Of a stretch of 64,000 nt of DNA, positions 22,131-57,200 are shown piece by piece (position 1 is the first letter of the stretch; each line of letters opens with the position of its first letter). The notes below the pieces were generated by a model. The model was not told the origin of the DNA. It ran no database searches and worked only from the letters and a program-made list of their open reading frames with translations. Made by a program: the position numbers and the translations under genes. Origin of the DNA: Cucumis sativus (Eukaryota; Streptophyta; Magnoliopsida; Cucurbitales; Cucurbitaceae); the NCBI RefSeq assembly GCF_000004075.3, contig NC_026656.2:11284001-11348000 (forward strand). The letters are read 5' to 3'.

Positions 22131-22658
22131 CATATATAAAAGGGAGTAAATTGGTTGGGTTAGGTTGATGGACATTCTCAACCCAATCCATATTTTCGGG
22201 TTGGTAAGGTTGGCAACCCGAATAACTCAAATTGTATTATCAACCTAACCCAACCATTAAAATTTGGATTGAGTTGGCTTGTCAGGTTATTTTATTTTTG
22301 TTTTAAACAATATGAATTTCAAATTTGAACAAAGTGTAGATCATGATAAACGATCTTGGATCTTAGTTGCATTGAGATGCCTTTGGGTGAAAGAATTATG
22401 TCCTTAATTCATTCGATGTTGAGTAATCAATGCCCCAGATGAAAGAATTCTTTTTTTAGTTATTGGATCTCAGGCCTTAGTGGCACCAAGATGAAAGAAT
22501 TTTGCCTATATTTTATTTGATATTGGACATACATTGCCTCATGATGCCTCGAGATGAAAAACTTCTGCCTTTAGTTATTCGATCTCGAGCCTTAATTGCA
22601 ACGAGATGACCCGGGATGAAAGAATTCTTCTTTTAGTTATTAGATCTCGGGGCTTAAT

Positions 22659-22731
22659 GGACTATTAGCTCAATTGGTTAGAGCATTTTGCTAATAATGC
22701 GAAGGTCACAGGTTCGAGACTTGCATGTCTA
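22659..22731 (+). pseudogene. tRNA-Ile(AAT) pseudogene, copy A
   Basis: This copy matches the intact ones over its length, but the 3' acceptor strand (ATGTCTA) no longer pairs with GGACTAT and appears one base short. The A box is changed to TAGCTCAATTGG. The anticodon stem and loop still contain CTAATAA, and the B box GGTTCGAGA is intact. Confidence 0.75.
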
Positions 22732-23384
22732 GTCACTTCTCCCTTCCCACAGACATCGACAACTGAATCTAACGAGAGAAAATGGTTTGCCTTGTTTTCT
22801 TTCTTTTGGACAGAAACGCCCCTGACTCCCTTCACAATATATATGTTTTCTTTATTTGATGCATGTGAAATATATATTATTGTAGTATTTACCTTTGTTT
22901 ATTTGAAAATTATGAAATGTATACTAATACTATGATATATAAACGAAATAGTATGATATCTTGGGACTTATGTGTATGTTGTGGACTAAAGATACCTAAT
23001 AAAGAAAGTTGATTAAACAAAATATACTTTTGATTTTGTATATTGTAACATACGGTCATAATTTTGTATATATTCCAAGGTATATTATCAATATTTCAAG
23101 ATATATTGATATACATATCACGAACATCAGGGGGATATTTTAAACAATAACTTTCTTTAGTTATTGGATCCCGAGTCTTAGTGGCATCAAGATGAAAGAA
23201 TTTTTCCTATATTTATTCAATATTGAGCATACATTGCCCCGTGATGCCGCAGAATGAAAGAATTTTGTCTTTAATTAATTCAATCTCGAGTATGCAATGC
23301 ACGAGATGCCCAAGGATGAAATAATTATTCCTTTAGTTATTGCATCTCGGGACTTAATGACATATTAGCTCTATTAGTGCAAAA

Positions 23385-23458
23385 GGCCTATTAGCTCAGT
23401 TGGTTAGAGCGTCGTGCTAATAACGCGAAGGTCGCAGGTTCGAGACCTGCATGGGCCA
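23385..23458 (+). tRNA. tRNA-Ile (anticodon AAT), copy B
   Basis: This 74-nt gene folds into a full cloverleaf. The acceptor GGCCTAT pairs with ATGGGCC (one G-T), the D arm is GCTC/GAGC, and the anticodon stem TCGTG/CGCGA carries the loop CTAATAA (anticodon AAT). The T arm is GCAGG/CCTGC, with discriminator A. The A box TAGCTCAGTTGG and B box GGTTCGAGACC are intact, and TTTT follows within two bases (23460-23463) as a pol III terminator. CCA is not encoded, as expected for a nuclear gene. Confidence 0.93.
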
Positions 23459-23633
23459 ATTTTGTTATTTTATATGGTTTTTTTTTAACTCAACAACATG
23501 TCTATTCACTTCTCCCTTCCCACGGACATTGACAATTGAACCTAACGAGAGAAAATGGTTTGACTTGTTTTCTTTCCTTTGGGTGGAAACGTCCCTGACT
23601 CCCTTCACAATATATATGTTTTTTTTATTTGAA

Positions 23634-23707
23634 GGCCTATTAGCTCAGTTGGTTAGAGCGTCGTGCTAATAACGCGAAGGTCGCAAGTTTGAGACCTGCA
23701 TGGGCCA
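23634..23707 (+). pseudogene. tRNA-Ile(AAT), copy C, with damaged T arm
   Basis: It is identical to copy B through the anticodon arm (loop CTAATAA). In the T arm, GCAGGTTCGAGA has become GCAAGTTTGAGA. That introduces one stem mismatch and destroys the invariant C and the B-box core. Transcription is probably poor; a weakly expressed gene is the alternative. Confidence 0.65.
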
Positions 23708-24622
23708 ATTTTGTTATTTTATATGGTTTTTTTTTTAACTCAACATGTCTATTCACTTCTCCCTTCCCACGGACATCGACAATTGAACCTAACGAGAGAA
23801 AATGGTTTGACTTGTTTTCTTTCCTTTGGGTGGAAACGTCCCTGACTCCCTTCACAATATATATGTTTTTTTTATTTGATGCATGCGAACTATATATTAC
23901 TGTGGTATATACCTTTGTTTATTTGAAAATTATGAAATGTATATTAATACTATAATATATAAATGAAATCGTATGATACATTGGGACTTACGTATATATT
24001 GTGGGATAAGGATAACTAATAAATAAAACTAATTAAACAAAATGTACTCTTGATTTTGTATATTATAACATCCATATAAATAAAAGTGTAAATAGGTTGG
24101 GTCAGGTTGGAGATATTCTCAACCCAACCTATACTTTTGGGTTGGTTAGGTTGGAAACTCGAATTGTATTACCAACCCTTACAACCTACAATATGGGTTG
24201 GATGAGTTGTCGGGCTATATTGTTTTGTTTTAAGCAATAACTTTTAATTTTAAGCAAACATGTAGATCGTGATAACGATCTCAGTCCTTAGTTGCACTGA
24301 AGATGCCTCGGGATAAAAGAATTATGTCTTTAATTCATTCAATCTCGAGTATACAATATCCAGAGATGAAAAAATTATTCCTTTAATTATTGGATCTCGG
24401 GCCTTAGTGGCACCGAGAGGGTCTGGGATGAAAGAATTATGCCTATATTTTATTTGATCTTGGACATACATTGCATGTGATGCTCCAGAATGAAAGAATT
24501 TTATCTTTAATTCATTCAATCTCGGGTAGACAATGAACCGAGATGCCCCGGAATGAAATAATTATTCGTTTAGTTATTGGATTTCTGGCCTTAACGGCCT
24601 ATTAGCTCAATTCATTATAAAA

Positions 24623-24696
24623 GGCATATTAGCTCAGTTGGTTAGAGCGTCATGCTAATAGTGCAAAGCTCGTAGGTTTGATACCTACATGGGCCA
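24623..24696 (+). pseudogene. tRNA-Ile(AAT) pseudogene, copy D
   Basis: It is 74 nt long with an intact A box (TAGCTCAGTTGG) and an anticodon loop still carrying AAT. The acceptor (GGCATAT against ATGGGCC) has a mismatch, and the anticodon stem TCATG/TGCAA has at least two. The T stem GTAGG/CCTAC shows paired changes, but the loop is TTTGATA. Confidence 0.75.
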
Positions 24697-24839
24697 AAAA
24701 CAATTTTATTGTAGAGATTTTTTTTTAACTCAACCACATGTCATTCATTCTAGTCATTTCTCCCTTCCCACTGACACCGACCTTGATTGATTTTGTAACA
24801 TCTGAGCTTAATTTTGTATATATTGAAGTGTATATATCA

Positions 24840-37980: not shown

Positions 37981-40900
37981 TGGTAATAGACGTCCTTAGA
38001 TTCGTCTTAGTTGAGGAATGTCCTCATATGCTTGTCCCAAATGCATCATGATACGTTCGTGATGCACATGAAAGATGGACCAAGGTAAATGAAAATGCCA
38101 AAATATACATCTTGGCTAGTTTGTCTAAAGTCTTAGTCAAGAAGCATGAAAACAAGATCTTTGCTCGAGAGATCATGAATTCCTTGAGGGATATGTTTAG
38201 ACAATCATCCTCTCATATCAAACATGATGGTCTAAAGTTCATCTTCAATGCTCGCATGATTGAAGGAACATTTGTTAAGAACATGTTCTCAACATGATGG
38301 TCCAATACAAGGTAGCTGAGATGAATATATAGGATCGTCTTCGACTAATCTAGCTAGATCAACTTTATTCTTGAAGCCCTTCTAAAGAGATTCCTTCAAG
38401 TTTGTAGTAACACCCATAAGTAAGCTAATTTATAAACCTTACCACCATTTTAAACGAGCTCCGTACCTATGAGTCTCAAATGAAAGTCAAAGGACAATAA
38501 GGTGAAGCAAAAGTTGTCAGCACTTCTAATTAAAACTTCCACAAAGGTTTAACCACCGAAAGTAAGTCTAGACCCTCTTCCTCCAACTCCAAGAAGTGGA
38601 AGAGGAAAATGGGCAAAAGGGGGAATAAAACCGCCCCACTAGCTGCAATCTAAAAAGAAGAATAAAAGGGCAAGAAAGTCAAGCTTGTAAAGGAAATTAG
38701 TTTCCATTACAACGATGACGAGAACTAGAAGAGACATTTTATGAAGTATTTAGCTGAGAAGAAGAAAGCCAAAGAAGGTAAATATAATTTACTTGTCTTA
38801 GAAACTTGTTTGATAAAAAATGATGGTTCTGCCCGAATAATTATTTTAGAAGCCATAGCCACTAATCACATTTACAAGGAATTAGTTCCTAGAGGTAGTT
38901 GGATGCCAGAGTGATGGCTATGAAGTTTGGAACAGAAGAGGTTATTTTTGCTGTTTTAGTAAGGGAGCATAAAGTTATTTTTCAAGAATTGTTTTTTTTT
39001 TTTTGTTATTGAACAGTGTATATGTAATTCCTAATATAAAGAGAAACTTAATTTCGGCTACATGTCTTCTAGAATGTATGAATTCAATTTCATTTTAAAG
39101 TTAATAAATTATTCATTTTAAAGAATGGAGTTGAGATATGTTCTGCAACTTTAGAAAACAACTTATATATGCTAAGGTCGTTGCATATAAAATACTTTTT
39201 AACACTGGATTGTTCAAATTTGCAACGACACAAAATAAAAAGTAAAAAATTTCTCCTAAGGAAAATGATCATCTTTGATATCTAAGATTAAGACATATAA
39301 ATCTCAATAGGATTGAGAGACCAATAAAAAAATAGATTTCTAAGTGAGTTAGAAGAAATTTTTTACCAGTATCTGAATCACGCCTTGAAGGCAAGATAAC
39401 AAAAAAATATTTTGCAGAAAAAGGTTAAAGAGAGAGAGAGAAAAAAAAAAGACTTAGAACTTGTATATTCAAACCTTTATGGTACTATGAATGTTAAGAC
39501 AAAATGAGGGTTTGAATATTTCATCTCTTTCATAGATGATTATTCGAGATTTAGATATCTTTAAGTAATTCAACATAAGCCTGAAGCTTCTGAAAAGTTT
39601 AGAGTATAAATCAAAAGTTGAAAACTTGTTAGGTAAAACTACTAAAACACTTTAATTTGATTATGGTGGAGACTATATGGACTTGAGATTTCAGAACTAT
39701 ATGATAGAAAGTGAAATCACATCTTAACTCTCAACTCTCAACACCCAATATACCTAAAAGAAGGTGTATCAAAAAGGAAAAATAAAACCTTGTTGGACAC
39801 AATTTGGCCTATGATGAGCTATGCTCATTTACCTAACTCTTTTAAGGTTATGCAGTAGAGATAACAATATACATCTAACAATATGTTCCCTAAAAATATG
39901 TTTTTGGACACCATTTTAAGTTGTGGAAAGGTTCAAAGGTAGTTTACGACATTAATTTCATGATTTGGGGATGTCCAACACACGTGTTATCAACAAACTC
40001 AAAGAAACCAAAACCTCATTTAATGATAATGCCTATTTGTACATTATCCTAAAGAGGGGAGAGGTAGTCTCTTCTATGATTCTAAGTGTATCTTCGAATG
40101 TCACATTCTTACAGGAAGATCATATGAGAGATTAGAAATTGCACAATATATCAATATTAAGTGAAATTTTCTATGAAAATGATTGTACATCAACAAGGAT
40201 TGTTGACAATGCTGGCACATCAAGAATTATTGTTGTTGTTCTAGGCACATCTAGCAGTTGAGGGAACCTTGTTGCAGTGGGAGGGTTATATCTCATCCCA
40301 CATAATACACGAGTTTAACTGAAGCGCAAGCCACCATACTTGATGGTGACGTAGAGGCTCATTTGTCAATTAAACAAGCAATGAACAACATTAACAATGA
40401 TGAATGGGCCGGTCAAGATCATGGATTTTGAAATGGAGTCAACGTACTCTAATTCACTCTGGGAGTGTGTAGAAGGAAAGGTTTGACCTTTAAGGCTAGG
40501 TTAGTAGCAAAAGGTTATACTCAAGTAGAGAGGGTTGATTAAGAATAAACATTATCTGTGTCATTATCAAAATTCTATTTTCTATAGCCACTCATTATGA
40601 TTATGAGATATGACAAATGACGTCAATAGTACTTTTCTGATTGACAATCTTGATGAGATCATCTACATGAATCAACTAGAGGGATTCATAAAACAAGCTC
40701 AAGAGCAAATAGTTTGCAAGATAAAACAATCCATCTATAGATTGAAACATACATTTAGGTCTTGGGATATAAGGTTTGACACTCCATCAGATCTTATGAT
40801 CAAAATGCTAATGAGCTTTGTGTTTATAAGAAAATCATCAAAGGTACTATTGCTTTTCTTGTGTGGTATGTAAATGATATCTTGCTCATTGAAAATCATG

Positions 40901-43229: not shown

Positions 43230-43497
43230 TGTTGGGATTTATGTTAGTGTTAACCCGTTGTATGCTAATTTGTAAACAAAATTATTTAATTATTTAATTT
43301 TCATAACTCAAATCCAATAAACATAAATCCAAGGTTATATGATGTAACATAAACGGTATGCAGTCGACATACAAGTGGATCATGTTAAAGATCTATAGTA
43401 CATGGATAAGGTTGGTTGTTTTATCTTGGTAACACTATAGATACGAATTACTTTATAAATGCTACAAATGATTTGTTTCAAACCGTTCATATATAGA
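43230..43497 (+). mobile_element. Probable 3' LTR fragment of the copia element
   Basis: It starts TGTTGGGATTTATG directly after the purine-rich stretch ending at 43229, the usual start of this kind of LTR (TG...). The downstream end is not defined because a hAT-derived element starts at about 43500. No matching copy was found upstream. Confidence 0.5.
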
Positions 43498-43499
43498 CA

Positions 43500-44218
43500 C
43501 AGTGGTGGATCTAGAAAATTTATTAATAGGGGGCTTTATAGTTTAGTCAAAATAATTTATAAGTTGGTGGTTCTAAAAAGTTAATAAATGTACTTATTTT
43601 CGGACATCACAATTGTCATCTATGAGATTTCATATTTTGAAATCGATACATAATTACTTCATTATCTATCTTATCAAATAGATCGCCTCTCTCAATATAT
43701 GTTACAAGACAATCATGCATCCATTGGTCTCCTATTCGATTGCGCAATTGAATCTTTATAATCCTCATAGCAGAAAATGTTATCTCCACAATAGTTGTAA
43801 CTAGTAAGATCAATGCTAAAGTAAGAAACCGATAGACTAACGTTAGACTTAATCTTTAACTGTTAACACCATTTTTTGAGAAAGATCACAAATACTTACT
43901 TTGTCAACAAACATATTATCTGAATCCACATCAATGATATAATTTGAAGCCGATCTTCGAGAATAACAAGCTTTAGTAAAAAAAAAAGTTGAAAAAAATA
44001 AATGTTGAAGTTTTATAAAAATAATAAAATGAATGGAGTTAAATAGCTTTAATTGAGGTGGGAAAGAGAAAAAGATGAAGTTTTATAAAAGTAGATATGA
44101 ACCTAGATTGGAAAGAGAGGCAAACAAGCAGAGTAACCACTAAACTATCAACCATCAACCAATATTAAAAATTAAACAATTATATATATAAAGATGACAA
44201 AGTTTGGGGGGGTCAAAC
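43500..44218 (-). mobile_element. hAT-derived element, internally deleted (copy 1)
   Basis: The left end CAGTGGTGGATC matches the termini of the larger copy at 48680. The minus frame near 43616-43830 encodes the end of a hAT transposase: TTIVEITFSAMRIIKIQLRNR, then IGDQWMHDCLVTYIERGDLFDKI, corresponding to the dimerisation region. The rest of the transposase is missing. The element joins the tRNA repeat unit at about 44218. Confidence 0.7.
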
Positions 44219-44480
44219 GTCCCACAATATAACATAAGTCCCAATATATCATAGGATTTCATTTATATATCATAGTATTATTATACATTTCATAATTTTC
44301 AAATAAACAAAGGTATATATTGCAATAATATATAATTCACATGCCAAATAAAGAAAGCATATATGTATTGTGAAGGGAGTCATGGGCGTTCCCTTCCAAA
44401 AGAAAGAAAACAAGCCAAACCATTTTCTCTCATTCAGTTGTCGGTGGAAAGGGAGAAGTAAATAGAAATGAAAAACAAAA

Positions 44481-44554
44481 TGGCCCATGCAGGTTTCGAA
44501 CCTGCGACCTTCGCGTTATTAGCACGACGCTCTAACCAACTGAGCTAATAGGCC
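44481..44554 (-). tRNA. tRNA-Ile (anticodon AAT), copy E
   Basis: This 74-nt gene folds into a complete cloverleaf. It is identical to copy B except for GGTTCGAAACC in the T arm, the usual plant form. The A and B boxes are intact, and TTTT follows directly after the discriminator on the minus strand (complement of 44477-44480). This looks like a functional gene. Confidence 0.93.
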
Positions 44555-45745
44555 TATTTGAGCCAAAAAGACTAATAGGCAATTAAGGTACAATATCCAA
44601 TAACTAAAGGAAGAATTATTTCATCCTGGTGCATCTCGGTGCATTGTATACCTAAAATCAAATGAATTAAAGATATAATTCTTTCATTATGGTGCATTAC
44701 GAGGCAATGTATGCTCAAAATTGAATAAAATATAGGCAAAATTCTTTCATTTTTGACAATCTTGGTGCCATTAAGGCTCGAGATCTAATACCTAAAGGAA
44801 GAATTCTTTCATCTCAAAGAATTGTATACTCGAGATCGAATGAATTAAAGACAAAATTCTTTCATCTCGGGGCATCTTCAGTGCAACTAAGGCCCAAGAT
44901 CGTGTACCATAATCTACACATTTGTTTAAATTTGAAAGTTATTGTTTAAAACAAAATAATACAACTCGACAACCTAACCTAACCCATATTTTAATGGTTA
45001 GGTTGGGTTGGTAATACAATTCAGTTTATTTGGGTTGTCAACCACACCAACCCAAAAATATGGGTTGGATTGAGAATGTCCCCAAACCCGACACAACCTT
45101 TTTATACTCCTATAGATACACATATGCATGTATGTATGTATGTATATATATATGTTGTAAGGTACATCGACTAATATGAGTTTTTTCCTTTGAGGTTTTA
45201 TAACATATATTTAGGGTTAAGAAAAACTTTTTTAAAAAAAAAGAGTTCTTAGTCTACGTGCACATTTGTACCTAATATTTTAATTTGTAAACTTAGGTAT
45301 CAATAATTGTGGCAACAATGTATTCCTCCGATGTTACTGATATGTATATCAATATATCTTGAAATATTGTCAATATACTTTGGAATATATACAAAATTAA
45401 GACTGGATGATATAATATACAAAATCAAGAGTATATTCTGTTTAATTAATTTTCTTTATTAGTTATCCTTATCCCATAGTATATATACCAAAGTCCCAAG
45501 ATATCATAGGATTTCATTTATATATCATAGCATTAGTATACATTTCATAATTTTCAAATAAACAAAGGTATATACAATATATAATTTGCATACACCAAAT
45601 AAAGAAAGCATATATATTGTAAAGGGAGTCAGAGACGTTCCCGTCCAAAAAAAGAAAACAAGTCAAACCATTTCCTCTCGTTACATTAAGTTGTCGGTGC
45701 TGGTGGAAAGGGAGAAGAAACCCTAAAAAACTCTAAATAAAAAGT

Positions 45746-45819
45746 TGGCCCATGCAGGTTTCGAACCTGCGACCTTTGCGTTATTAGCACGACGCTCTAA
45801 CCAACTGAGCTAATAGGCC
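45746..45819 (-). tRNA. tRNA-Ile (anticodon AAT), copy F
   Basis: It is 74 nt, identical to copy E except for one base in the anticodon stem (CGCAA instead of CGCGA), giving one C-A mismatch. Acceptor, D and T arms, both promoter boxes and the anticodon loop CTAATAA are intact. A run of five T follows within a few bases. It is probably transcribable, with function slightly less sure than copies B and E. Confidence 0.85.
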
Positions 45820-46002
45820 AATTTATGATTAAAGAGCTAGTAGGCCTTTAAGGCCTGATATTCAATAACTAAAGGATGAATTCTTTCATTTTGGGTCATC
45901 TCTTTGCAATTAAAGCCCAATATCGAATAACTAAAGGTAGAAGTCTTTCATCCCGGGGCAATGTATGCCTGAGATTGAATAAAATATAGGCAAAATTCTT
46001 TT

Positions 46003-46717
46003 ATAGTTTAGTCAAAATAATTTATAAGTCAGTGATTCTAAAAAATTAATAAATGTACTGATTTTCGGACATCACAATTGTCATCTACGAGATTTCATAC
46101 TTAGAAATTGATACATAATAACTTAATTATCTATCTTATCAAATAGATCTCTCTCAATATATGTTACAAGAAAACCATTCATCCATTGGTCTCCCATTCG
46201 ATTGCGCAACTAAGTCTTTATAATCCTCATAGCAAAAAATGTTCTCTTCACAGTAGTCGTTGTAACTAGTAAGATCAATGCTAAGGTAAGAAACTGATAG
46301 ACTAATGTTAGACTTTATCTTTAGCTGTTATCAACATTTTTTGAGAAAGATCACAAATATTTATTATATCAACAAACATATTATCTTAATGCACATCAAT
46401 GATGTAATTTTGAAACTGATTTCGAGAATAACAATCTTTAGTAAAAAAAGTTGAAAAAAAAATAGATGTGTTGAAGTTTTATAAAAATAACACAATGAAT
46501 GAAGTTAAATAGCTATAATTTAGGTGGGGAAGAGAAAAAGATGTTGAAGTTTTCTAAAAGCAGATATGAACCTAGGTTGGGAAGGGAAGCAAATAAGCAG
46601 AATAACCACTAAGCTACCAACCAGTATTAAAAATTAAACAATTATATTTATACATATATTATAAAGATGATAAAGTTGAGAAGGGTTCAAGCCTCCTGGG
46701 CCTATACGAAATCAGTT
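46003..46717 (-). mobile_element. hAT-derived element, truncated (copy 2)
   Basis: It is closely similar to copy 1 (43500-44218), including the remnants of the transposase C-terminal region in minus orientation and the tail GATAAAGTTGAGAAGG...GGCCTATAC. The left terminus is missing. The tRNA-unit ladder (GCAAAATTCTTTT) joins it directly at about 46003, and the unit resumes at about 46717 with TGATATGTATGTCAATAT. Confidence 0.65.
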
Positions 46718-46832
46718 GGTTCTGATATGTATGTCAATATATCTAGGAATATATACAAAGTTAAGACCAGATGTTACAATGTACAAAATCAAGAATATAT
46801 TATGTTCAATCAATGTTCTTTTAAAAAAACAC

Positions 46833-46896
46833 CAGTCTCAAACCTGCGACCTTCGCGTTATTTGCATGACGCTCTAACCAATTAAGCTAATAGGCC
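46833..46896 (-). pseudogene. tRNA-Ile pseudogene, copy G, truncated
   Basis: It retains the 5' acceptor GGCCTAT and the anticodon region but has lost the 3' acceptor strand and part of the T arm. The A box (TTAGCTTAATTGG) and anticodon loop (CAAATAA) are altered, so it cannot make a normal tRNA. Confidence 0.8.
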
Positions 46897-48047
46897 TTTT
46901 TGAGCTAATGGAGCTAATAGGTCATTAAGGTACGATATCCAATAACTAAAGAAAAAATTATTTCATCCTGGGGCATCTCGGTGCATTGTATACCCGAGAT
47001 CGAATGAATTAAAGATATAATTCTTTCATTCCGGCGCATTACGAGGCAATGTATGCTCAAAATTGAGTAAAATATAGGCAAAATTCTTTCATTTCAAGCC
47101 ATCTTGGCGCCACTAAAGCTCGAGATCCAATAACTAAAGGAAGAATTTTTTTATCTCGGAAAATTGTATACTCGAGATTGAATGAATTAAAGATAGAATT
47201 CTTCCATCCCGGGACATATTCACTACTACTAAGGTTCAAGGTCGTGTACCATGATTTGCACGCTCGTTTAAATTTGAAAGTTATTGTTTAAAACAAAACA
47301 ATCTAATCTGACAACCCAACCCATATTTTAAGAGTTAGGTTGGGTTGGTAATACAATTCGGTTTATTTGGATTGCCAACCTCACAACCAAAAAAATATGG
47401 GTTGGGTTGAGAATGTCCCCAAACCCGACACAACCTGTTTATACTCCTATAGATACACATATGCATGTATGTATGTATATATATGTTGTAAGGTACATTG
47501 ACTAATATGGGTTTTTTACTTTGAGGTTTTATAACATATATTTAGGGTTAAGAAAAACTTCTTTTTTTAAAAAAAAAAAAAGAGTTCTTAGTCTACGTGC
47601 ACATTTGTACCTAGTATTTTAATTTGTAAACTTAGGTATCAATAATTGTGGCAACAATGTATTCCCCCGATGTTCTTGATATGTATATCAATATATCTTG
47701 AAATATTGTCAGTAAAATTAAGACTATATGTTATAATATACAAAAGCAAGAGTATATTCTAATTAATCAATTTTCTTTATTAGTTATCCTTATCCCACAA
47801 TATTTATACATAAGTCCCAAGATATCATAGGATTTCATTTATATAGCATTAGTATACATTTCCTAATTTTCAAATAAACAAAGGTATATACCACAATGAT
47901 ATACAATTCGCATGCACCAAATAAAGAAATCATATATATTGTGAAGGGAGTCAGAGACATTCCCGTCCAAAAGAAAGAAAACAAGTCAAACCATTTCCTC
48001 TCGTTACATTCAGTTGTCGGTAAAAAAAATTCTCTAAATAACAAAAT

Positions 48048-48121
48048 TGGCCCATCCAGGTTTCAAACCTACTACCTTCGCATTATTAGCCCAACAGTCT
48101 AACCAACTGAGCTAATAGGTC
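48048..48121 (-). pseudogene. tRNA-Ile pseudogene, copy H
   Basis: It is 74 nt long with an intact A box and anticodon loop CTAATAA. It has an acceptor mismatch (GACCTAT with ATGGGCC), a broken anticodon stem (TTGGG/TGCGA), T-arm changes and a B box degraded to GGTTTGA. Confidence 0.8.
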
Positions 48122-48679
48122 ATTTTAATATAATTGAGCTAATAGGCTGTTAAGGTCTGGGATCCAATAACTAAATGATGAATTCTTTCATTTTGGGTCA
48201 TCTCTTTGCTCTTAAAGCCCAAGATCGAATAACTAAAGGTAGAAGTCTTTCACCCCAAGACAATGTATGCTTGAGATTGAATAAAATATAGGTAAAATTC
48301 TTTTATCTTGAGACATCTCGGTGCCACTATGGCCCGAGATTCAATAACTAAAAGAAGAATTCTTTCATTTTGGGGCATTGAATACATGAGATCAAATGAA
48401 TTAAAGACATGATTCTTTCACCCTCGGACATCTTGATGCAACTAAGGTCTGAGATCGTGTATCATGATCTTCACTTCGTTTAAATTTGAAAGTCGTTGTT
48501 TTAAAAAAAACAATACAACTTGACAACCCAACTCAACCCATATTTTAAGAGTTAAGTTGAGTTGGTAATACAATTCGGGTTATTTTGGTTGCCAACATAA
48601 GCAACTCGAAAATATAGGTTGGATTGAGAATGTCCTCAACCCGTTTACAACCCAACCACAACCCGTTTACACTGCTACA

Positions 48680-50925
48680 TAGTGATGGATCCAAAAAATT
48701 TATTGACATGGGGCTTTATAGTTTAGTCAAAATAATCTATAAGTGAATGATTCTAAAAATTAATAAATTTATTAATTTTTGAACATCACAATTGTCCTCT
48801 ACGAGATTTCATATTTTGTAATCGATACATTATAACTTCATTATCTATCTTATCAAATAAATCTCTCTCAATATTACGTTACAAGACAACCATTCATCCA
48901 TTGTTCTCCCATTTGATTGCGCAAGTGAATCTTTATAATGCTCATAACAGAAAATGTCCTCTCCACGGTAGTCGTTGTAACTGCTAATATCAATGCTAAG
49001 GTAAGCAAACGATAGACTAATGGGCAGACTTTATCTTTAGTTGTTATCACCTTTTTTTTAGAAAGATCACCAATACTTGTTAACTCAACAAACATATTAT
49101 CTGAATGCACATCAATGATGTAATTTTGAAGCTGATCGTCATGAATAACAAGCTCCATAGTTGAAAAATCTTTAGGATAAAAATGTGGAAGGAAAATGAG
49201 TTTTTGTCTGTCAAAAGTAGTAAATGAGTTGCTCAGATTGAGACATGCCACACAAAGAAGTAACTCTGTACTTTTTTCAGTGAAACGATCATTTAACTCT
49301 TGAAGTTGCATGTCAATAACTGCATAAAAAATCTCAACACAATAATGATGTATATTTGTGGTTTCTTGAGATTTTCGTCTTTGCTTCCCTCGAACCAAAA
49401 ATGTATCATCCATTTTAAGCATTAGAATACCATGTTTATTACAAAAACTTGAAACTTCATCCAACAATGATTGTCATCCTGATTCTCTCATTGACTATAA
49501 TCTTACTTTACAAATCTTAACCAAATTCATTGCATTCACAATATTTTGATCTTTTCTCAAGATGAATTTCATAAGATGCACATGGAAAACGAAGTCAAAT
49601 GATTGGATTGAAGTCATTAGAACCTTTGCTTCATATTTTTGTTCAGAATTTGATCCATTCATCTATGATTGTCTCCTCACAAATTGGTGAGAACATTGAA
49701 ATACATCTCACCAAAGTGTTGTATTGTGATCCCCACCGTGTATCTCCTGGTTGTTTAATAATTGTTTCCTAATTTAATCATCTTCCAGTTGACAATTTGC
49801 CATTATTCAAAGTTTCAAAAGTGTTGGCACTGTGTTTTTCTCTTAACATGTCTCGATGTTTTGTTGATGCACCAATAATATTCACCACACTTACAACTAA
49901 AAGAAAAAGACCAACAATCTCTACATGATTTTTTGCAATAGCTACCAAAGCTAATTGAAGCTGGTGAGAGAAACAATGAACCAAATTGGATTAAACCTTC
50001 TTGACTATGACCCAAATTTCTTCAACGAAAAATTATGATTTCGAGGTTGGCAGGGTTCTTTTTTGTAGATATTTTCTACGAACTTTGTCTCAAATATTAC
50101 AATTGTTATCAGGAATTCTAATTCTTAGACCGAGATCTACCAGTAAATCTTCTAATTTTACTTCAGTGATGTACCTCTCGTAACTATTATTACTTTTATT
50201 CAAAGAAGATGATGACCCCGTCGATTTTCTTTGAAAATATTTTTTCATTTAGATCAAATTAAATATACAATAACATAACATAACATAACATTGTAACGAG
50301 AATAAATCAGGAAGATATTGACAAATAACAACAATATCACAACTTAAACAACCTAATACGTTTAGATAAGATCCATAAATTATTTCAAGAATCAATAAAA
50401 TAGGTATAAAACAATTCAACTAATACAAAAAAAATAAGCTAAGAATAATTTGAAACATGAAAACCAAATACATGAAATAAAATTACAAACTTGAAAAGAG
50501 AAGAAAATAAATTACAAAACTTACCTTATAAATTAGGAGATAAAGTTGAAGAAGAAGTTGAATATGAAATTTTAAAAAGTAAAACAAAAAATAGTAATGA
50601 TTTTACATATTAAAACGAATGCATATAAATAAAATAACAAAATTAAAAAGAAAAAGAAAATAAAAAATAAATAAAAGTTTACCTCACCAGCTTGGAGAAG
50701 ATGTCGAAGAAGCCAACAAAAAAAAGTTAAAATTTCCAAAAAATTTAGTGAAGTTGAATAACATCAGTAGAGTTCGAAATTGAGTTAGTAGGAGGCTGAC
50801 ATTCTTTAACCACTTAGCTACTTAAACGCATTGAAAAATTAATGCGTTATATATATATTATATAAAGACGATAAAGTTGAGAGAAGCTCGAGCCTATACC
50901 AAATTTGTCGGTATATAGACATGTA
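48680..50925 (-). mobile_element. hAT transposon (ZMYM1/DUF4371-type transposase), defective
   Basis: The transposase reads on the minus strand from ATG at 50248 (MKKYFQRKSTGSSSS), through LEDLLVDLGLRIRIPD and the DUF4371-type segment LVHCFSHQLQLALVAIAK and VVNIIGASTKHRDMLREK (49815-49990). An open 197-codon stretch at 48874-49467 follows, ending with the hAT dimerisation region (TTTTVERTFSVMSIIKI). The part normally between the N-terminal basic region and VHCFSHQLQ is missing, including the TTF-type zinc finger and much of DUF4371. Several stops and frameshifts are present. The left terminus is TAGTGATGGATCC (48680); the right end near 50925 is degenerate. It cannot encode an active transposase as it stands. 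Confidence 0.8.
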
Positions 50926-50989
50926 AGTGGGGTACCTTATACAATTTACACTCAAATCTCAACTACTAATTCATCCACTTGATAGAAAA

Positions 50990-54284: not shown

Positions 54285-57200
54285 ATGGATTTAAGAGTTA
54301 TTCAAGATACGAGAGTCATTTTGCCAACAATGATGAACAACAACAAAATGAAGTTGAGAAGAAAAAGCATTCTTTGTTTTGGAGTGCTCACAAGACCAGC
54401 AGAGGGTGAATTAATAGAAGAAACAAGAAAAACCAATACTGTTTATACAGATAATTGGTTTGATAAAATTGCCATAGACCATTTGTCTCAGGCAGTACAA
54501 GCAACATCAGGTTTGTTTTCTTTCTTTCTTTTTTTCTTGGAAAGATTTGGAAAAGATGGGGAAAAAGAAGATTGATATTAGAATTATGATATGCAGGTTG
54601 GAGAAGCAAAAAGAGTGGATATGAAAGCTTGGTGGAAGTGACAACAATGGCATCAAGAAATTTCAACCACATCAAACAAAAAGAAGTTGTCATTCAAGCC
54701 CTTGGAATGGCATTTCCAAAGCCAATCCTCTCTTTGGTAAACTTCATTCGTTGTCATTTAATACTCCCAGTATGTTTCATTCATTACCATTTAATAACGT
54801 TCACTATTCTTTTAGATTTCTAGCCTTCCTCTCTTTCATGATCTATGTATTATATTATGCATACCATACCATGCATACATGTAAAATATCTATCACCAAA
54901 CACACCATTAAATATGCGAATTGTGGTTATCTAAATTAACACGAGTATGTGTCGATAACCAAGAGAATTGTAATTCGAATTCTCATCTCCATTGCACTAA
55001 AACAAAAACAAAAACATATCAAAAAAGATTATATGAAAAGTCCTTGCAGTAACTTTTACTTTAATCAATGGTGCAAATAATATTATTATCTCAAGAGTCG
55101 TTCTCATTTAAAAATCACATCAATGAATCACATTTATATATGTTTAGTGTAGTGATTGCAGGAACAGAGATCAAAACACTAACTTATGTTCATGTTAATT
55201 AAGGGAGCTAAACTCACTCAATTACCTTAAATTACTTATTTACCTATTGTATTTGTCAATTGTTAAATAATTGATTTAAGGTGAGTAATGCATGATCATT
55301 TCATCCTTGATGAATTTTGTTTGAACCAAAATGTTGTCTCCGTTTGTTTGGTCTCTCTTCTCCCATCAACACTTGGGAGAATATAGCTAGGATCATTGCC
55401 TAGGTTAGAACCTACTGAAAAACTATACCCTTCTCTAATTTTTCTTTCAAGTAATCATTGGGTTTAATAATTATTTGATTGTCATGTCATTATATGGAAA
55501 CAGTATCATCAAATGGTCACATTTTTTATGTTAGTTTATTATAAATAAGTATTAAAATTTTGCTTTTACTATTATTAATTCATCTCCATATTTTCATTTT
55601 ACTATTATACCCTCAATCCTCCCAACTATATTGCCCTTGACACATAGTGGTGAACAAAGTGCAGATAAAAGCATTGCTACCACAATCCAAATTAGCAAGG
55701 GAATATTTTGCTGCATTCACCACTGTCTTCTTTGCTTGGTTAGTTGGACCCTGCGAGGTAAGATGTTGTAAATTTACCTAAAGGCCTCTTTATTTCCTCA
55801 GTGTATGTTCATAGAAATCCAAGGCCCTAATTGGGCATTCACTTGCATGCATACACAAATACACACAAGAGAGGCTAATCTCAGCATAACCTAAATATTA
55901 AGGTATATATGGCTAATTAAGAGGTTAAAAGTTTGAATTCCTCGTGATTGAATAAGGGAGAGACATATTTATAATTAACATTTTCTTTCTTTTGGGTTGA
56001 AAAGTTAGAGGCTGACTTGTGCATAACTCAACTGTTAGGACAAGTATCATCAATCAAGAGATCAAAAGTTTAAATCTTATTGTTACGACAAGTATCAACG
56101 ATCAAGATATTAAAAGCTTAAATTCTCTACCCATGTGTTAGAATTCAGCTTGTCCTATGTGAATTCAGTTGGTCCTCTATCTTTTGTATTGGAAAACTAA
56201 GTAAGTGCTCAAGGCCACTATTTAAGACCGATGTCAAAGAATTTGCTGAGAATAGATAGTATTTAAATGGAGGATATTGAACAACCAAGATCAGAATTAA
56301 ACTAAGTAAGTGCTCAAGGCCACTATTTAAGACCGATGTCAAAGAATTTGCTGAGAATAGATAGTATTTAAATGGAGGATATTGAACAACCAAGATCAGA
56401 ATTAGAAGAGATTCACAAGGTTGAAAAGACTGACATATGAGGAGGCATACTGGTGGACATCAAGAACTTCACCTTTAGCACTATATTGAATATAATAATA
56501 CGATTTTCAATGGCCAAGTTGATAAACCTGCAGTGTTTGAGGCACTAGTCCCTTCTAGACTTGTCCTGTCCCTACAAATCAAAGAACGGTTTTTGTGACG
56601 TAAGATATATGAACCAATTCTTTGAGAAAACTATATTCTCTTCATGGTTAATCACTTTGACCCTTTCCCTTTCTAGACATTCCTTAAAATTTAAATTAAA
56701 CACAGCTGATATGCCTAGATTGTTATGGAGGGAGGGATTGAAATAGCACACACATGGAAGGAACAAGTTTTTTTTTTTTCCAATTGACTAATTCGTAAGA
56801 CTGACAATGGTAACAAATGATTCTTACAGGTGAAGGAATCAGAATTCAAAGGGAAAAGAGAAAAGAACGTGGTTCAAATCCATAAGTGCAGGTAATTCCT
56901 TCTCGCATCAGAGTTATAATTAAGGCAATGCTATCTAAACGTTCATGGGTCCCATTCTCACCTACCTGAGATACTTTCCACACCCAAAGAACCATTTGTC
57001 TATAATTACTATACGCTTCTTCTAAACCCTTAGTACTTAATCACATTAAGTGATATCCATCATTCACATCATTGAAAATTTGAAATTGTCCTCGTCAAAA
57101 TTAACATTCAGCAAATCTATTTTGCCCCTAAACATATCCCATTTATTTGCAGGTTCCTAGAGCAAACTAATTGTGCTGGAATGTGCATTAATCTATGCAA

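Follow-up and report, generated by a model that had tools for sequence, protein, structure and literature searches.

Organization of the composite

The window examined here is a 64,000-bp stretch of the cucumber (Cucumis sativus) genome, bases 11284001-11348000 of contig 2 (226.6 Mb in 88 contigs for the whole genome), and all positions are given in window numbering. Eight tRNA-Ile(AAU) units lay in this window in two oppositely oriented clusters, D-C-B-A at 22.1-24.7 kb and E-F-G-H at 44.2-48.7 kb, and the second cluster was interspersed with pieces of hAT transposons. A sequence-only reading of the same DNA had placed a hAT piece, E, F, a hAT piece, G, H and a hAT element in that order, and self-BLAST of the window (E 1e-6, rows of at least 60 columns) bore this out. 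The resulting arrangement, hAT1-E-F-hAT2-G-H-hAT3, formed a 7.4-kb composite at 43500-50913, which is the subject of this report. Its parts were as follows.

43500-44219, forward strand: hAT1, an internally deleted derivative with the left terminus CAGTGGTGGATC intact and the right terminus lost; the border with the flank of E is approximate
44481-44554, reverse strand: tRNA-Ile(AAU) E, intact (ARAGORN, Rfam)
44573-45108, forward strand: tail of unit E, one copy of a dispersed repeat that contains ~62-bp tandem units
45746-45819, reverse strand: tRNA-Ile(AAU) F, intact, with one difference from E
45820-46004, forward strand: tail of unit F, ending early at the block junction
46000-46004, forward strand: block junction between unit tail and hAT, with 5-bp microhomology TTTAT
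46000-46721, forward strand: hAT2, the same derivative as hAT1, with the left 35 bp missing and the right terminus present but imperfect
46722-46834, forward strand: remnant of the left flank of unit G (self-BLAST)
46835-46896, reverse strand: tRNA-Ile G, a 62-nt fragment, pseudogene
46897-47799, forward strand: tail of unit G and the G-H spacer (self-BLAST)
48048-48121, reverse strand: tRNA-Ile H, a degenerate pseudogene, 88% to E
48122-48679, forward strand: full tail of unit H (self-BLAST, tail tree)
48680-50913, forward strand: hAT3, a longer coding-type hAT with both termini, which differ little from the family ends
48874-49473, reverse strand: open frame in hAT3 with PF05699, the dimerisation domain at the C-terminus of hAT transposases (E 0.00022; 21.4 bits, exactly the curated cut-off)

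The ends of the hAT family, read from other genomic copies, were CAGTGG.GGATC on the left and ..CTAAATCCGTCGGTG on the right, the GGTG-type right end being recognisable in 8 of 14 other copies. By eye, short imperfect terminal inverted repeats were present (left, CAGTGGTGGATCTAG; reverse complement of the family right end, CACCGACGGATTTAG). Neither hAT1 nor hAT2 had a coding middle. The minus strand of hAT3 held the remains of a transposase gene, and three other fragments tested in the domain search alongside PF05699 were assigned to no family. A tree that also included 12 other copies, and from which the last 45 columns, where hAT3 passes into its coding part, were omitted, made hAT1 and hAT2 sisters (97/96) and placed hAT3 among other copies across a 90/92 branch. 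Four other copies were aligned across the internal breakpoint. Three of these (L043, L044 and L050, chosen since their match ran past it) were hAT1/2-like beyond it, two of them diverging from the hAT1/2 sequence further on; the fourth (L045) was hAT3-like. The earlier reading of hAT sequence at three places held, with hAT1 and hAT2 as one derivative; hAT3 seemed to be no third copy of that piece but a longer hAT of coding type, belonging to a different subtype. We infer that two different hAT elements, rather than one, flank the tRNA pair; hAT1 and hAT3 shared the same orientation with the tRNA units between them, which is the arrangement of a macrotransposon.

ARAGORN called four tRNAs in the window (B, C, E and F), and Rfam additionally accepted unit D, whose 37.4 bits exceeded the gathering score of 29; G and H were called neither by ARAGORN nor by Rfam at the gathering score. 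E was identical to 12 other genomic tRNA-Ile genes among 43 matches. At the rate of the surrounding sequence, the probability of one change or fewer in E and F jointly since the block duplication was 0.0001 to 0.002 (Poisson, flank rates assumed), and selection or gene conversion could have kept both genes intact.

The tail repeat was dispersed over contigs 1-7 and 30 (L058-L065, L073-L075), its copies differing in how many ~62-bp units they held, and its end was GGTTGGGTTGG-rich and hairpin-like by eye. At L060-L063, a stretch of more than 4.3 kb that contained a tail-repeat copy was 99.6-100% identical on contigs 30, 5, 4 and 1; this identity points to a recent mobile or amplified segment.

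Duplication of the tRNA pair and its junction

Self-BLAST aligned 43535-44190 with 46000-46652 (hAT1/hAT2) at 87.4% identity, and 44493-46004 with 46835-48306 (E-F/G-H) at 85.6% over 1528 columns in a single piece, each with an E-value of 0.0. The tRNA ends at 44554 (E), 45819 (F), 46896 (G) and 48121 (H) gave spacings of 2342 bp for E-G, 2302 bp for F-H, 1265 bp for E-F and 1225 bp for G-H, in agreement with those put forward from the sequence alone. The accompanying proposal, that a two-unit block duplicated whole together with a hAT piece, was supported. E-F and G-H were collinear, and the hAT1/hAT2 match lay to their left. Misassembly of near-identical repeats was unlikely, because the two blocks differed at ~10-12% of their aligned bases.

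A closer relationship of E to G and of F to H had been predicted as well. The tree of the unit tails included seven of the eight units, with C left out since the copy of B abuts C and leaves it no tail of its own, and it grouped E with G (92/92) and F with H (99/97), as predicted. The trees named in advance as refuting, E with F and G with H, did not appear, and both clades were rejected for the tails by the approximately unbiased test (p-AU 3e-7 and 2e-7). The left-flank tree included six of the eight units, D and G being omitted as most of their flank is missing, and E+G was not addressable there; it recovered F+H (97/94) and placed E beside F+H weakly (78/84), with a p-AU of 0.019 for E+F. 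In the tail tree, A stood with F/H, B and D stood with E/G (98/99), and E+F+G+H as an exclusive clade was rejected (p-AU 0.006), which indicated that the alternating dimer predates the separation of the two clusters. The simplest reading is that hAT pieces joined a pre-existing tRNA dimer, the alternative being loss of hAT from the other cluster. The two-unit arrangement was ancestral to the duplication, as had been suggested, but it also occurred in the inverted 22-24.7 kb cluster, where there was no hAT match.

At the block junction, the F tail followed the H tail (87.6% over 185 columns) up to TTTAT and then passed into hAT. The TTTAT motif was common to both junction parents, the F/H-type tail and the hAT, and the junction truncated both the F tail and the left end of hAT2. 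The block repeat is best explained as a microhomology-joined tandem duplication. Such a duplication, running from a point in hAT1 to a point in the tail of an ancestral unit f, would yield the short F tail and the missing left 35 bp of hAT2 in one step, and it would also yield the internal deletion common to hAT1 and hAT2 and the full H tail adjoining a whole hAT3. The second block starts within hAT sequence at 46000-46004, not with a whole hAT. A start at 46000 is also not at a transposon end, where a reversed-ends tandem direct duplication would begin.

The Kimura two-parameter distance (K2P) was 0.124 between hAT1 and hAT2 and 0.114 for the whole of E-F/G-H, a similarity expected if the hAT and the tRNA block were copied in one event. 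By segment, K2P ranged from 0.051 (spacer) to 0.155 (tRNA F/H), with 0.153 for the E/G tail. Counts of shared sites among the hAT pieces were 40 for hAT1+hAT2, 20 for hAT2+hAT3 and 16 for hAT1+hAT3 (30, 19 and 13, respectively, without the last 45 columns), and hAT2+hAT3 exceeded hAT1+hAT2 in none of six 75-column bins, two of which were ties. A recombinant middle element, as left by duplication through non-allelic homologous recombination (NAHR), was looked for in hAT2, and no switch was found.

Outer target-site duplication and empty site

The outer ends of the composite were bordered by the following features.

43281-43491, forward strand: left flank, a dispersed copia-type piece, probably a 3' long terminal repeat (LTR) (repeat matches, copia RVT_2 nearby, profile)
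43492-43499, forward strand: left copy of the target-site duplication, TATAGACA (terminus comparison)
50914-50921, forward strand: right copy of the target-site duplication, TATAGACA (terminus comparison)
50922-50950, forward strand: right flank, an apparent continuation of the copia-type repeat (joined-flank alignment, profile)

Automatic terminus finding on the whole composite chose inner ends, and the outer ends were compared directly. The octets outside the left terminus of hAT1 and the right terminus of hAT3 were identical, 8/8, at the predicted bases. A match of this kind is expected by chance at ~3e-5 given this base composition, and among 233 mispaired flank pairs two reached 6/8 and none reached 7 or 8. 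The duplication was present at the outer ends only: the two flanks of hAT3 itself agreed at 3/8, and the left flank of hAT1 agreed with the right flank of hAT2 at 2/8. A length of 8 bp is that of the target site of Ac-type hAT elements, according to the available parts of PMC4270019 and PMC3744419.

The inner octets, 46722-46729 after hAT2 and 48672-48679 before hAT3, agreed at 5/8, a level reached or exceeded by 11 of the 233 mispairs, this pair included. A former target site common to both could explain this agreement, but need not.

The repeat in the left flank had at least 39 other genomic matches (40 candidates scored), seven of which ran to 43487-43493. These seven copies, whose match ran closest to the site, were used, and the other listed matches ended at least 23 bases before it. 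A copia RVT_2 domain lay in an open reading frame at 40607-40873, and 43281-43491 is probably the 3' LTR of a copia-type element. A profile of the seven copies matched 43284-43491 (E 1.3e-29). When the left and right flanks were joined, they aligned across the site with the seven other repeat copies. The profile scored 97.8 bits in the intact window, where it stopped at 43491, and 110.3 bits through the true join; the highest score among 1000 random joins was 106.4. In single-copy tests, the right flank aligned collinearly with five of the seven copies (p ≤ 0.014). The empty site was seen in paralogous repeats only. Taken together, the outer 8/8 match, the joined-flank alignment and the profile and random-join results favoured a single insertion, which probably extends from the left end of hAT1 to the right end of hAT3.

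Proposed history and alternative explanations

Our preferred explanation, to which we assign a probability of roughly two in three, is that 43500-50913 is a single composite hAT insertion produced by macrotransposition, with a separate microhomology-joined tandem duplication. The donor would have been a tRNA-Ile array in which a tRNA pair e-f was flanked by two hATs in the same orientation, the one non-autonomous and of the hAT1/hAT2 type, the other the coding-type hAT3. Transposase, the presumed agent, would have used the two outer ends, left for the former and right for the latter, as a pair, moving everything between them, and landing in an old copia-type repeat would have generated the 8-bp target-site duplication. 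In a separate step, earlier or later than this transposition, the segment that begins 35 bp into hAT1 and ends within the f tail would have been duplicated in tandem, yielding hAT1-E-F'-hAT2-G-H-hAT3, and afterwards E and F would have stayed intact as G and H decayed. The sequence-only reading had suggested transposon-driven duplication. Transposition probably carried the block to its site, as the 8-bp duplication and the empty site indicate, but the duplication itself did not need a transposase.

Several observations weigh against this explanation. Counting the final two bases of hAT3, the outer match is 10 bases long. The flanks of 11 other hAT copies agreed at 1 to 6 of 8 positions, none perfectly (2 to 6 of 8 in the five with well recognised ends), and the family is left without a clean positive control because no other checked copy has a perfect 8-bp duplication. 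The right flank was recognisable over ~30 bp only; alone, it had no other genomic match and no forward profile match, being too short or decayed for detection. For two of the seven repeat copies, the single-copy test yielded no collinear alignment of the right flank, and 12 of the 1000 random joins reached as far in the profile as the true join, none scoring as high. Placing hAT1, hAT2 and hAT3 in one clade cost 16.3 log units at a p-AU of 0.069, which is above 5%. The uneven K2P is unexpected for one event at one rate, and perhaps arose from conversion or unequal mutation rates. No donor site was found.

A single event could also give both the outer duplication and the inner junction, by reversed-ends transposition with re-replication, as in maize Ac. 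The left arm (hAT1-E-F') would then have been fused to the right arm (hAT2-G-H-hAT3), the two having been copied from both sides of a donor hAT pair. Known composite insertions, as the available parts of PMC4270019 and PMC9910405 describe them, have outer transposon ends, inner copies of flanking DNA, 8-bp duplications and 4-bp joins, and the anatomy here fits: target-site duplication, hAT, arm, 5-bp join, arm, hAT and target-site duplication. However, the donor, which was not seen, would need two diverged hAT-e-f blocks astride the reacting pair, and so an extra earlier duplication. Because re-replication needs a donor that is already repeated, we prefer macrotransposition with a separate duplication and regard the single event as rather unlikely.

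Unequal exchange, the other mechanism suggested from the sequence alone, was not supported by the comparison of the hAT pieces. NAHR between flanking hAT copies would have duplicated the tRNA pair and left three hATs, and three element copies around two repeats are what is expected, as stated for Ac in the part of PMC3744419 available. The middle hAT should then be hAT3-like on the left and hAT1-like on the right, but the shared-site counts showed no such switch in hAT2, and the junction was a 5-bp microhomology between unlike sequences. NAHR would further require a crossover inside the 35 bp that hAT2 lacks, together with a deletion ending at the same junction, and we consider it very improbable.

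Repair of hAT excision gaps is known to add filler DNA, which counts in favor of a slightly less probable history still. A single hAT would have inserted into the copia-type repeat, and gap repair or gene conversion templated by a tRNA array containing hAT would subsequently have copied in the tRNA units and extra hAT sequence. This process would likewise leave one outer 8-bp duplication and foreign DNA between hAT ends, but it takes one step more than macrotransposition and starts from the same hAT-e-f-hAT donor, and the left terminus of hAT3 and the right terminus of hAT2 are nearly complete, as for whole elements. Finally, tRNA-Ile arrays without a hAT match do exist (C5:11622795-11627365 and the 22-24.7 kb cluster), but a plain tandem array with chance hAT insertions, in which the outer 8-bp match and the flank join are coincidental, can be practically dismissed: the octets at the predicted termini agree at 8/8, and not one of 1000 random joins equalled the true one.

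Comparison with known systems

Ac/Ds macrotransposons of maize were reportedly described by Huang and Dooner in 2008. In the available parts of PMC9910405 and PMC4270019, maize Ac/Ds macrotransposons and Composite Insertions resemble the cucumber composite in that two hAT-superfamily elements have their outer ends used together, the intervening DNA is moved, an 8-bp duplication surrounds the whole and the inner junction shows microhomology. The maize Ac study reports, in the part available, a 4-bp join and the excision of a 28-kb macrotransposon (PMC9910405). Unlike the maize examples, the composite belongs to another hAT family in another plant, carries tRNA genes as cargo and consists of diverged, non-intact copies, and its movement is deduced from sequence only. 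The maize dhAT tandem direct duplications (PMC3744419, in part) are also tandem duplications adjoining a hAT and recognised by their anatomy in a reference genome; however, the maize repeats start exactly at the transposon end, whereas the second repeat here starts 35 bp inside the hAT.

Tandem tRNA genes are likewise found in the A. thaliana tRNA-Cys cluster that overlaps Helitron annotations and in maize tRNA-Ile clusters, and some plant tandem tRNA clusters have a transposon annotation over the repeat unit (PMC10701932, PMC11700998, each in the part available). In contrast to those clusters as described there, the tRNA genes here lay between hAT ends with a target-site duplication outside. 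No description of tRNA genes inside a composite hAT was found among the open-licence papers listed, as judged by titles and opening lines, which does not prove absence. The transposition reaction is known; the cargo is unusual.

The numbers and clusters of tRNA genes differ widely among plant genomes, and the vehicles are seldom visible. The composite appears to illustrate one route for tRNA genes to move and multiply, and as the outer ends of the vehicle, the target-site duplication, the empty site and the duplication junction are all still legible, the steps can be tested in relatives. It also suggests that an apparently plain tandem tRNA array can be transposon cargo. More tentatively, hAT macrotransposition might spread and multiply working nuclear tRNA genes in plants, with E and F selected to remain intact and the duplicates decaying; we regard this generalization as possible rather than probable.

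Related tRNA-Ile clusters

The other cluster in the window comprised the following.

22147-24727, reverse strand: inverted cluster D-C-B-A, with B and C intact, A and D degenerate, and no hAT match
23385-23458: tRNA-Ile(AAU) B, intact
23634-23707: tRNA-Ile(AAU) C, intact

Self-BLAST found no hAT match in this cluster under the thresholds given above. When it was weighed as a donor, it showed no hAT match and no nameable footprint, and the adjoining stretches were dispersed repeats. B and C formed a 247-bp tandem duplication at 23383-23879 with 97% matches, because of which C was without a tail of its own.

Elsewhere in the genome, the tRNA-Ile(AAU) array at C5:11622795-11627365 was without a hAT match and had in common with the window units the tRNA plus at most ~30 bp around it. 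In the surrounding locus (L056, C5:11619500-11629400), nine tRNA-Ile(AAU) genes were called, along with more degenerate copies and short tandem units, with no hAT match. The tRNA-Ile pair on C1 (L057, C1:1533500-1539500) had in common with the window units the tRNA and ~110-130 bp of left flank, and this pair is a possible source of the tRNA unit. Further along the window, a 105-bp tandem repeat was present at 56194-56404 in two copies with 100% matches.

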